A stretch of DNA of 64,000 nucleotides, from assembly GCF_013408825.1 (NCBI RefSeq), contig NZ_JACCBZ010000008.1:62001-126000 (forward strand), given 5' to 3'. Under the pieces are notes generated by a model. It saw only the letters and a list, made by a program, of their open reading frames with translations. It was not told where the DNA came from and searched no databases. The translations under genes were made by a program, and so were the position numbers. Below are positions 56,800 through 59,655 of the stretch, in pieces (the stretch's first letter is position 1; each line of letters begins with the position of its first letter). The stretch is from Mucilaginibacter tundrae. Lineage in GTDB: Bacteria > Bacteroidota > Bacteroidia > Sphingobacteriales > Sphingobacteriaceae.

Positions 56800-57648
56800 A
56801 TGGAAATGAAAACGCAGGAACAAGTTAATTACGAACGCATATCCGAAGCGATAGACTATATAAAGCTAAATTTTAAAGGACAACCAAACCTGGATGAGAT
56901 CGCTGCTAAAATAAACCTGAGTCCGTTCCATTTTCAACGTTTGTTTACTGATTGGGCTGGCATAAGCCCCAAAAAATTCCTGCAGTATTTGAGCCTTGAC
57001 TATGCAAAAAGTATGCTCAAGGAAAAAAGCGCCACTTTATTTGATACAGCTTATGAAACAGGATTGTCGGGTACAGGGCGTTTGCATGATTTATTTGTGA
57101 ACATAGAAGGAATGACGCCCGCTGAATATAAAAATGGCGGCGCGGCGCTAAGTATTAATTACAGTTTTGCTGAAAGCCCCTTCGGAAACCTGATTGTAGC
57201 ATCGACGATGAAAGGAATATGTTACATTGCTTTTGCTGATGATCCGGATTTTGCTCTTAGCGAATTGCAGGCTCAATTTCCAAATGCTACGTATCATCAA
57301 TTTGCGGATGCGGCCCAGCAAAACGCCCTGTTCATTTTCAGGAAGGATTGGACACAATTGTCAGAAATAAAACTGCATTTAAAAGGTACCAGCTTTCAAC
57401 TTAAAGTTTGGGAGGCGTTGCTCAAAATTCCAATGGGAGGATTAAACACTTATGCAAACATCGCGCAGCAAATAAATGCTCCACAAGCTAACAGGGCAGT
57501 CGGTACCGCGATAGGCGCGAATCCGGTTGCTTTTTTAATTCCTTGTCACCGGGTTATTCGTTCCTCAGGCGAAACCGGTCAGTACCATTGGGGTAGTACC
57601 CGTAAGTCCGCAATTATTGGCTGGGAGGCCGCTATATTAGAAGCTTGA
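56800..57648 (+). CDS. AraC helix-turn-helix fused to methylated-DNA cysteine methyltransferase (Ada-like)
   Basis: A 282-residue fusion: residues 1-105 AraC-type double HTH (IAAKINLSPFHFQRLFTDWAGISPKKFLQYLSLDYAKSML), and residues 120-282 an Ogt domain with active cysteine C249 in IPCHRVIRSSG and the NRAVGTAIGANPVAFL region. It removes O6-methylguanine by transferring the methyl group to C249. The N-terminal zinc Ada domain that senses methylphosphotriesters is absent, so the usual activation switch is missing. Starts at ATG 56800 (or 56806). It lies 92 bp before the small His-rich genes. Confidence 0.9.
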   Translation: MEMKTQEQVNYERISEAIDYIKLNFKGQPNLDEIAAKINLSPFHFQRLFTDWAGISPKKFLQYLSLDYAKSMLKEKSATLFDTAYETGLSGTGRLHDLFVNIEGMTPAEYKNGGAALSINYSFAESPFGNLIVASTMKGICYIAFADDPDFALSELQAQFPNATYHQFADAAQQNALFIFRKDWTQLSEIKLHLKGTSFQLKVWEALLKIPMGGLNTYANIAQQINAPQANRAVGTAIGANPVAFLIPCHRVIRSSGETGQYHWGSTRKSAIIGWEAAILEA

Positions 57649-57688
57649 TTGTTTTTAATTATGACATATTTGTGAGAATTAAAAACAA
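57649..57688. terminator. Hairpin after the Ada-like gene
   Basis: A perfect 12-bp AT-rich inverted repeat (TTGTTTTTAATT at 57649-57660 and its complement at 57677-57688) with a 16-nt spacer directly after the stop codon. A plausible but weak terminator, or a regulatory site of the small genes downstream. Confidence 0.4.
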
Positions 57689-57739
57689 TTAAATAATTCT
57701 ATGGTTTATGTTATGATACCCCGATAAAAAACACACAAC

Positions 57740-57865
57740 ATGAAAAAGTACATCACAAGGATCGTCGCATTGCTGATATTAACCGCGGCAATTTCAAGTT
57801 GCTCGGTACAGTATCGGGAACGCCACGGACATATGCATGACCACGATCATGACATGAATCATTAG
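57740..57865 (+). CDS. Small His/Asp-rich lipoprotein (41 aa)
   Basis: A 41-codon frame. MKKYITRIVALLILTAAISSC is a lipoprotein signal with the cysteine at residue 21 (lipobox-like AISSC). The mature peptide is only 21 residues and ends HGHMHDHDHDMNH, strongly metal-binding in character. It heads a group of three tiny genes ending at the terminator 58279-58310. No family is recognised. Confidence 0.65.
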   Translation: MKKYITRIVALLILTAAISSCSVQYRERHGHMHDHDHDMNH

Positions 57866-57906
57866 TAATTAATAATAAATACATTTATCTATAAAAACCA
57901 CAAATT

Positions 57907-58062
57907 ATGAAGTACCTTAAAATAATGTTGTTTGCCTTAATTATGGCATTCACATTCGTTGGCGCACAAGCGCAAGTAGTAGTAAGAGCACACATTGGCG
58001 GCCCGGCTTATCACCATCGTCACTGGCATCACCGTCACTGGCATCACTACCACAGATATTAG
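57907..58062 (+). CDS. Small secreted His-rich protein (51 aa)
   Basis: A 51-codon frame. The signal peptide MKYLKIMLFALIMAFTFVGA ends with AQAQ (about residue 23). The mature part of about 28 residues has ten histidines plus Trp, Tyr and Arg, with an internal duplicate RHWHH. Its signal sequence is nearly identical at DNA level to that of the next gene, evidence of tandem duplication. Predicted to be periplasmic or extracellular. A metal-binding or antimicrobial role is inference from composition only. Confidence 0.7.
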   Translation: MKYLKIMLFALIMAFTFVGAQAQVVVRAHIGGPAYHHRHWHHRHWHHYHRY

Positions 58063-58098
58063 TCAATAGTTGGTTAAAATCACAAAAAAACATAGATT

Positions 58099-58272
58099 AT
58101 GAAGTACCTTAAATTAATGTTGTTTGCCTTAATTATGGCATTCACTTTTGGAAGCGCCGATGCGCAAGTTAGAGTTAACATAGGCTTAGGCCCATATGTT
58201 CATAATGGCCATCATTATCATCACCGTACAGCATACTGGCGCGGTCACCACAGATACTATCGTTACTATTAA
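58099..58272 (+). CDS. Small secreted His/Tyr-rich protein (57 aa), paralogue of the previous
   Basis: A 57-codon frame. The signal MKYLKLMLFALIMAFTFGSA ends ADAQ (about residue 23). The mature peptide (about 34 residues) has seven histidines, seven tyrosines and several arginines (HNGHHYHHRTAYWRGHHRYY). Its signal peptide matches the previous gene at almost every base, whereas the mature parts have diverged. A strong terminator follows. No named family recognised. Confidence 0.7.
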   Translation: MKYLKLMLFALIMAFTFGSADAQVRVNIGLGPYVHNGHHYHHRTAYWRGHHRYYRYY

Positions 58273-58278
58273 CATAGT

Positions 58279-58310
58279 AAAGCCCCGCTTAATAGCGGGG
58301 CTTTTTTTTT
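58279..58310 (+). terminator. Terminator after the His-rich gene group
   Basis: A perfect 11-bp GC-rich stem, AAAGCCCCGCT (58279-58289) with AGCGGGGCTTT (58294-58304), a TAAT loop and a long T tract. It supports the three small genes being a real transcription unit. Confidence 0.9.
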
Positions 58311-58389
58311 GACTTTAAAGTGAATGTCAGATAATATTTTACGTGGTAATTAACTTACGTTTTTTAAATTGCAGACTTATAAGCTTTAT

Positions 58390-59655
58390 ATGCATAGAGG
58401 TGGCTTTTTAACAGTTTTTTTAATTATAGCAGCTATCACCCTGTTGTTTGACTGGTATGTATTTTCTGGGCTAAAAACATTTACCAACGATTGGCAGTCT
58501 ACCAAAGCCAGGCAAATTGTAATTTGGGGATATTTAATTATCTCTGTTGGTGTAACCATCTTATTTGTTTCCGGATTTGGCAGTTTTAGCCATGCGCGCG
58601 GAATGACGCCCTACCATGAGTATATGCTGAGCCTGTTCATTACTTTTTTTATAACCAAGCTCGTTTTTGTTATCGTATTGTCCTTAGGTGATTTGGGGCG
58701 TTTTATATATGGGGTAGGTAATTCATTTGCTAAGCATAACGAAAAAAGTACTCAGCCATTTTTTCCATCACGAAGGAAATTTATAAGTGAGCTGGCTATT
58801 TTACTGGCGGCATTTCCGTTTACCGGGTTTATTTATGCCATGGTAAGGGGCAAATACGATTATAAAGTACACAGGGAAACTATTTATTTTGATGGATTGC
58901 CTGATGCTTTTGATGGGTTTACTATCACCCAAATATCTGATATACACTCCGGTAGTTTTGATAATACCGCGGCGGTACAGCGTGGGATTGATTTAGCCAA
59001 TGCCCAAAAAAGCGACCTGTTTGTTTTTACAGGAGATTTGGTGAACAACGCGGCCTGGGAAATTGAGCAATACATCCCGAACTTTAAACAACTAAAGGCG
59101 CCCTATGGGCAATATTCTATTTTAGGCAACCATGATTATGGTGATTATATACAATGGGATAACGAAGCCGAAAAAGCTGCTAATTTAGACAAGCTGAAAC
59201 AGCACCATAAAGAGTTGGGCTACCGCCTACTGCTGGATGAAAACGTAGAATTGGAAAAAAACGGTCAAAAAATATCCTTAATAGGTGTGCAAAACTGGGG
59301 CAGGGGATTTATACAAATAGGGGATTTAGATAAAGCACTTAAAGGTGTTGATGAAAGTGCATTTAAAATACTGCTATCACACGACCCCACACACTGGGAG
59401 GATAAAGTACGTTTTAATACAACCAATATCGACCTGACATTGGCCGGGCACACACATGGTGCGCAATTTGGTGTTGAAACCGCAGGTTTTAGATGGAGCC
59501 CTGTGCAATATCGCTATCTCGACTGGGCTGGTTTAGCACATCATAATAAACGTTATTTATATGTAAACAGAGGCTTTGGCTTTTTAGCTTTCTCGGGTAG
59601 GTTAGGTATATGGCCGGAGGTTACGGTAATTACCCTGAAGAAAAAGGTTGTATAA
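58390..59655 (+). CDS. Membrane-anchored metallophosphoesterase
   Basis: About 421 residues. Four to five N-terminal helices (roughly the first 160 residues) precede a calcineurin-like phosphoesterase with all metal motifs in order: TQISDIHSG (DxH), FTGDLVNN (GD), LGNHDYG (GNHD), LSHDPTHW and AGHTHGAQFG (GHTH). The substrate is unknown; relatives include YkuE-like enzymes. The ATG at 58390 is chosen; a TTG at 58369 would extend the protein by seven residues. It ends close to the small gene at 59714. Confidence 0.9.
   Translation: MHRGGFLTVFLIIAAITLLFDWYVFSGLKTFTNDWQSTKARQIVIWGYLIISVGVTILFVSGFGSFSHARGMTPYHEYMLSLFITFFITKLVFVIVLSLGDLGRFIYGVGNSFAKHNEKSTQPFFPSRRKFISELAILLAAFPFTGFIYAMVRGKYDYKVHRETIYFDGLPDAFDGFTITQISDIHSGSFDNTAAVQRGIDLANAQKSDLFVFTGDLVNNAAWEIEQYIPNFKQLKAPYGQYSILGNHDYGDYIQWDNEAEKAANLDKLKQHHKELGYRLLLDENVELEKNGQKISLIGVQNWGRGFIQIGDLDKALKGVDESAFKILLSHDPTHWEDKVRFNTTNIDLTLAGHTHGAQFGVETAGFRWSPVQYRYLDWAGLAHHNKRYLYVNRGFGFLAFSGRLGIWPEVTVITLKKKVV

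Follow-up and report, generated by a model that had tools for sequence, protein, structure and literature searches.

Histidine-rich metal-binding tails and loops occur in HypB, SlyD and ZnuA-type proteins, where the histidine stretch is part of a folded protein. ZraP is a Spy/CpxP-like periplasmic zinc-binding protein under sigma-54 control, and histidine-rich antimicrobial peptides exist as well. The three small tandem genes described here (ORF1 to ORF3) encode proteins that share HxHxH and HDHDHD runs with the first group, but in the trio proteins such sequence makes up nearly the whole mature protein. Likeness to ZraP lies in a small envelope protein rich in metal ligands and in the sigma-54-like promoters of some sister ORF1 genes; however, the trio matches no such protein model, mature ORF3 is without a predicted fold, and the trio itself has no sigma-54 promoter. 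No Pfam or NCBIfam model reached its cut-off for any of the three proteins, none of the Spy/ZraP/CpxP or RcnB-type families in either collection matched at E ≤ 1, and a match to the CzcI model (E = 0.22; 12.2 bits against a cut-off of 100) was at chance level. PHROGs gave nothing better than E = 0.09 and PADLOC nothing at E ≤ 0.1, while among solved structures ORF3 had a chance-level match (E = 0.24) and ORF1 none up to E = 1. Literature searches on Mucilaginibacter histidine-rich and small proteins, and on small secreted histidine-rich proteins of soil or peat Bacteroidetes, found no paper; one on Mucilaginibacter lipoproteins, proteome or exopolysaccharide gave nothing related by title, and one on histidine-rich zinc lipoproteins of the Bacteroidetes periplasm placed the family in no title among the matches listed. 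With no model match above chance, ORF1 to ORF3 represent an uncatalogued but conserved family of small histidine-rich exported proteins, largely of Mucilaginibacter and of a familiar, ordinary kind.

The window (the whole stretch of 64,000 nucleotides of Mucilaginibacter tundrae DNA that was analyzed) carries the frames at 57740 to 58272, where an earlier note on this DNA had placed three frames of 41, 51 and 57 codons in one direction, each with its own start and stop; this layout was confirmed (Table 1). Gaps of 41 nt (ORF1/ORF2) and 36 nt (ORF2/ORF3) separate them. The full trio is also present, in frame, in three other Mucilaginibacter genomes (G064, G071 and G098; the genome of the window is G000, genus g1), in each case with the same ada-like gene upstream and the same phosphoesterase gene downstream as in the window. 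The strong terminator that the note had claimed behind ORF3 was likewise found, with an 11-pair stem (−20.4 kcal/mol, z = −5.4) and a T run, and its stem-loop was recognized by eye in all four trio genomes. The block TATGGTTTATGTTATGATACCCC upstream of ORF1 is kept in the trio clade with a one-base insertion in G098 and one substitution at its start in G071. ORF1 to ORF3 are predicted to form a single transcription unit. The sigma-70-like consensus was found 5 times in the trio region against a shuffle mean of 3.5 (sd 1.8), no clear excess, and an Rfam scan of the window at gathering scores returned no match. An AT-rich inverted repeat (57645 to 57692; stretch z = −2.65) lies between the ada-like gene and ORF1 and may terminate the former.

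Table 1. Positions of the trio and its flanking features in the window
Feature	Positions	Strand	Description
AraC/O6-methylguanine methyltransferase fusion (ada-like)	56803-57648		Upstream of trio; Pfam
Conserved block TATGGTTTATGTTATGATACCCC upstream of ORF1	57700-57722	+	Probable promoter region, trio clade
ORF1	57740-57865	+	41 aa His/Asp-tailed lipoprotein; ATG start; lipobox ISSC, Cys21
ORF2	57907-58062	+	51 aa predicted Sec/Q-rule exported cationic peptide; ATG start; HHRHW-type repeats
ORF3	58099-58272	+	57 aa predicted Sec/Q-rule exported cationic His/Tyr/Arg peptide; ATG start
Intrinsic terminator of trio	58279-58310	+	Stem 58279-58304, T run to 58310
Calcineurin-like phosphoesterase	58369-59655		Downstream of trio; Pfam

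The export signals claimed for all three frames (lipobox-type in the first, Sec-type in the second and third) were recovered. ORF1 has its lipobox at residues 18 to 21, as signal peptidase II lipoproteins do, and is probably lipidated at Cys21, although its score against Pfam LPAM_1 was only 14.3 bits (cut-off 20). The C-terminal tail that follows is HGHMHDHDHDMNH (also given as SVQYRERHGHMHDHDHDMNH). The lipobox cysteine is invariant in the ORF1-type alignments (21 of 21 rows of A1, 26 of 26 of A6), whose rows were recognized partly by the lipobox motif itself. Members begin with M-K and a hydrophobic signal, share Ser20-Cys21 and Arg26, nearly always have Ser22, and show a conserved SCSVxYR head; the tail varies in length and drifts in sequence, His and Asp remain common in it, and it ends in YRNY in 11 of the 26 rows of A6. 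Forty-three mature parts chosen by head motif and length, with no His filter, had a median of 25% His and 16.4% Asp overall; 32 were net negative and 11 were not. The family profile drew 259 matches from the protein collection (one entry marked as the window's own), named mostly "hypothetical protein" or "lipoprotein" among the matches listed, with Zn2+ ABC transporter (substrate-binding protein), RcnA and LolB as further automatic names. MuYL_3766 of M. xinganensis (P0046) belongs to the same family, with the head SCSVEYR and a His/Asp tail, but its tail is longer and ends in HHYRNY; it is named only hypothetical protein or lipoprotein.

The Sec signals of ORF2 and ORF3 end in AQA/Q and ADA/Q (slash, predicted cleavage site), and the Gln after AxA (Q23) is invariant in the ORF3-type alignments (16/16 rows of A2, 19/19 of A5). 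Gln directly after AxA is the mark of the pyroglutamate-capped exported proteins of the Q-rule, as set out in PMC10653852; both peptides would accordingly be cut at AxA/Q and are likely to carry an N-terminal pyroglutamate, although the Q-rule defines a processing class and not a functional family. The His and Tyr counts of the earlier note hold by eye, with 10 His in the 29 aa of mature ORF2 and 7 His plus 7 Tyr in the 35 aa of mature ORF3. Eighteen protein-collection matches were obtained for ORF3, counting one labelled as the window's own entry, and most go by the name "hypothetical protein" or "lipoprotein"; Spy/CpxP chaperone also appears as an automatic name and, like the Zn2+ ABC transporter and RcnA names of ORF1 relatives, probably reflects composition and is not evidence. 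All 52 entries of the ORF3-type set are net positive in their mature parts (50 genes, two entered twice via alternative starts), a character that is partly selected because the set was filtered for H+R+Y above 17%. The 24 short members have 24.9% His and 18.8% Arg. In long relatives Arg, Val, Tyr and Pro are abundant and His is scarce, so that what the ORF3-type family keeps throughout is its positive charge and not its His. An aromatic C-terminus such as HHRYYRYY is common among close relatives of ORF3. Sixteen ORF3-type rows and three long relatives gave no Pfam match above cut-off, nor did four long relatives in NCBIfam. AlphaFold2 (19 sequences) was confident only near the signal helix of ORF3 (mean pLDDT 63, pTM 0.29) and gave the mature part no confident fold (pLDDT about 50 to 55). 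Mature ORF2 and ORF3 may be disordered in the cell.

Across 149 Mucilaginibacter genomes, ORF1-type matches (E ≤ 0.01, own genome included) were found in 85 and ORF3-type matches in 49. By profile (E ≤ 0.001), ORF1-type proteins occur in 62 of 301 sampled genomes of the family; outside the genus, strong matches (E below 1e-10) came from three genomes, two in genus g3 (G150 and G190) and one in g14 (G320), and the remainder were weak and mostly partial. The order-level sample held them in 30 of 201 genomes at E ≤ 1e-6, from 3 of 15 genera. ORF3-type profile matches were registered in 140 of the 301 family genomes at E ≤ 0.001, a number in which many weak matches cover mainly the signal and were not counted as relatives. 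In hand-made lists of 104 ORF1-type places in 102 genomes, 39 places are followed on the same strand by an ORF3-type match no more than 600 nt away. The other 65 show none so close: 10 have a match further off on the same contig, at 2.7 to 16 kb for nine of them and at 769 kb for the tenth, and 55 have no match in the lists. The 39 include both g3 genomes with an ORF1-type match; the pair of G150 has a gap of 25 nt, and in G190 the ORF3-type protein begins at an internal start within a longer frame. The pair is therefore common; it is not obligate, because the eight ORF1 genes that score best for a sigma-54-like site (see below) stand alone, with no ORF3-type frame within 600 nt downstream. 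The trio keeps its frames in three other genomes and its proteins have matches in the protein collection; the three frames are therefore real genes kept by selection, and the earlier note's view of them as real small exported histidine-rich genes is supported by their frames, order and many relatives. In G037, the ORF3-type match that follows ORF1 runs across two reading frames (L115, G037:C1:4434106-4434298), apparently a decayed gene or a sequencing error.

The earlier note had also proposed a tandem duplication with divergence restricted to the mature parts, under diversifying selection. Duplication and divergence stood: ORF2 and ORF3 are diverged tandem paralogues, and the first 51 nt of their signals agree at 48, the near-identity on which the note had remarked. 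Diversifying selection did not, as pooled dN/dS of the mature parts across the four trio genomes was 0.04 (ORF1), 0.08 (ORF2) and 0.26 (ORF3), nowhere above 1, with 0.18, 0.20 and 0.37 for the signal parts; these are rough values from pairwise pooled counts, with about 9 to 21 synonymous sites per part and pair. Five neighboring genes ranged from 0.015 to 0.113. The mature parts are under purifying selection, loosest in ORF3, and indels inside the frames are multiples of three, including a change in the copy number of the HRHWH unit in ORF2 of G064. Low dN/dS and in-frame indels indicate that ORF2 and ORF3 have each been kept since the duplication. Small exported proteins of low complexity are readily taken for noise; the trio demonstrates that they can be under strong purifying selection.

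Between species, ORF3 signals are identical at 50 to 51 of 51 nt, against 47 to 48 for ORF2 and ORF3 within a genome. The shared signal DNA thus looks to be held by constraint, at least in ORF3, and gene conversion of the ORF3 signal is not needed, as orthologues agree better than paralogues. The window's ORF2 signal matches the other three ORF2 signals at 47 to 48 of 51 nt, no better than it matches its own ORF3, and some local gene conversion may therefore have occurred there in the window's genome. Synonymous variation in ORF2 and ORF3 affected 4 of 33 signal codons (57907 to 57957 and 58099 to 58149) against 17 of 48 mature codons (Fisher P = 0.02; separately, ORF3 P = 0.016, ORF2 P = 0.48), a reduction that is suggestive only. 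Mature ORF3 (58165 to 58269) takes the form NIGLGPYVHNGHHY in G000 and G098 and KVGIGPYFHNGRHY in G064 and G071, at odds with the closer signal sequence shared by G064, G098 and G071; recombination between alleles is possible.

Part of the genus carries TTTGGCAY-N5-TTGC, the sigma-54 promoter form, about 50 nt before the ORF1-type ATG. A sigma-54-like score of at least 21.5 was reached by 8 of 42 ORF1 upstreams (48 to 53 nt before the ATG) and by 0 of 317 control upstreams, and a score of at least 18.5 by 17 of 42 against 17 of 317; the weights of this score were chosen by hand from the consensus, and kinship among the sequences means that they do not count as independent. When each region was compared with its own shuffles, 17 of 43 reached P ≤ 0.05. 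Sigma-54 promoters (TGGCAY-N5-TTGC, GG-N10-GC at fixed distance) are accordingly predicted for part of the sister ORF1 genes. At this place the trio clade has TATGGTTTATGTTATGATACC, with GG-N10-GA in G000, G064 and G071 and one more base in G098. Because the −12 GC is missing and the spacing is altered in G098, sigma-54 control of the trio was rejected and no such claim is made for the window. None of the seven exact sites in the window's genome falls on the window's contig. A regulon could not be drawn from exact sites, which were not enriched over the reversed pattern (G018, 10 against 9; G000, 7 against 7); in a crude frame test, 9 of 17 exact sites were without a suitable downstream frame, and at the G018 ORF1 site another frame was picked over ORF1. 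The sigma-54 gene itself, present in 142 of 149 genus genomes and in 117 of 117 good ones, is useless as a correlate of ORF1. Francke et al. (PMC3162934) argue that sigma-54 controls the bacterial exterior, and a 2025 survey (PMC12316311) notes sigma-54-dependent chaperone genes in Bacteroidota, with no mention of Mucilaginibacter in its main text.

Genomic context was of little functional help. Seventeen proteins (2 + 5 + 10) from the neighbor comparison, which covered 21 regions (20 hand-picked loci plus the window), were scanned against Pfam; they include phosphoesterase, GH16, cupin, DUF1493, GNAT, DnaJ, HAD, glyoxalase-like, histidine kinase, enoyl-CoA hydratase, acyltransferase, helix-hairpin-helix, outer-membrane barrel and FkbM methyltransferase proteins, and two had no match at E ≤ 0.01. 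Of the 21 regions, five have the ada-like neighbor named in the earlier note (those of the four trio genomes and of G037), and the rest have other neighbors.

The reading that we favor, tentatively, is that the trio buffers metal in the envelope, with cationic peptides as partners of the lipoprotein; the metal binding and surface coating put forward in the earlier note survive, as plausible roles only. Expressed as one transcription unit for small envelope proteins, the trio would supply a lipoprotein anchored in the envelope through lipidated Cys21, whose flexible His/Asp tail would offer many metal ligands, and two peptides that, once exported by Sec, cut at AxA/Q and probably capped with pyroglutamate, would act as unfolded polycations rich in His, Tyr and Trp. 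The His-rich segments may bind surplus divalent metal (Zn, Cu or Ni) as a low-cost buffer, and the positive peptides may dock on the anionic surface (LPS, exopolysaccharide) and on the acidic lipoprotein tails; the metal binding is suggested by composition only. Consistent with this are the conserved frames under purifying selection, the pairing at 39 of 104 ORF1-type places, including those of G150 and G190 in another genus, a His-rich and mostly net negative ORF1 tail that drifts while His and Asp persist, and ORF3-type mature parts that are net positive throughout the filtered set, His-rich when short and, in ORF3 itself, without a confident fold. The sigma-54-like promoters at some sister ORF1 genes have a parallel in Flavobacterium psychrophilum, where sigma-54 promoters serve protein quality control and envelope stress as well as exported proteins whose function is unknown (PMC9723704). 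Against it, none of the 17 scanned neighbors belongs to a metal-transport, metal-sensing or His-rich metal-binding family, long ORF3-type relatives are poor in His, a net negative charge is lacking in 11 of the 43 ORF1 mature parts, the eight ORF1 genes whose sigma-54-like sites score best are unpaired, and the trio promoter does not fit sigma-54. If a metal or polymer role is true, the trio would be a simple envelope buffering device.

It is possible, if somewhat less probable, that ORF2 and ORF3 form a cationic coat, binding exopolysaccharide, LPS or extracellular DNA through charge and aromatic stacking. His would then provide pH-dependent charge with metals incidental, and ORF1 would be a separate small envelope lipoprotein. 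The positive charge of all 52 entries (in a set filtered for H+R+Y), the many long members that are His-poor and rich in Arg and Tyr, the aromatic HHRYYRYY-like C-terminus of close ORF3 relatives and the 65 of 104 ORF1-type places for which the lists used show no ORF3-type match up to 600 nt away all fit such a coat. It leaves aside, however, that His and Asp are the commonest residues of ORF1 tails and that short ORF3-type members are strikingly His-rich; the trio also has no glycan-binding domain, though GH16 and FkbM-type genes lie near in some regions.

An envelope-stress accessory, in which the lipoprotein and chaperone-like peptides would serve under heat or envelope stress in the manner of ZraP, with metal binding as sensor or trigger, seems unlikely. 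The sigma-54-like elements at some sister ORF1 genes, the wide presence of the sigma-54 gene and six regions with a long ORF3-type gene downstream of a DnaJ-family gene would suit this role. Yet the trio clade has no sigma-54 element, exact sites are not enriched genome-wide, the DnaJ-linked genes have no sigma-54-like site of comparable score, mature ORF3 has no predicted fold, and no Spy/ZraP-type model of Pfam or NCBIfam matched. A more elaborate scheme, which we regard as speculative and less probable still, would be an uncatalogued two-part Sphingobacteriaceae envelope system of acidic His/Asp lipoprotein and unfolded cationic His/Tyr/Arg peptides; these would form a coat or condensate, cross-linked by metal and responsive to pH, on the mucilage-producing cell surface, and in part of the genus the system would be under envelope-stress (sigma-54) control.

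Secreted antimicrobial or toxic peptides under diversifying selection are very improbable: the trio peptides are small, cationic and exported, but they are strongly conserved under purifying selection, no immunity-like or dedicated export gene stands among the 17 scanned neighbors, and PADLOC gave no match and PHROGs only the one at E = 0.09, so that the peptide toxicity considered in the earlier note found no support. Chance open frames without function, to which the shortness and low complexity of all three might point, have a negligible probability and are refuted by the conservation of frames, signals, order and terminator in four genomes, by relatives in many genomes, by dN/dS well below 1 and by in-frame indels.

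Some further observations concern the surroundings of the family. The long ORF3-type genes of the DnaJ cluster (L105 to L110) encode Arg/Tyr/Pro-rich proteins of 105 to 118 aa and lie 371 to 405 nt downstream of the DnaJ-family gene; DnaJ domains were confirmed by Pfam on a seventh member of this cluster. A Tyr/Pro/Gly-rich ORF of 210 to 224 aa with a signal-like start (L112, 6928 to 7578, with counterparts L113 and L114) lies on the opposite strand between the ada-like gene and the trio in G064, G071 and G098 and is absent from the window; the one member scanned had no Pfam or NCBIfam match. G067 (L042) carries a tandem pair of ORF1-type lipoprotein genes, both of which have a TGGCA-type element of their own upstream.
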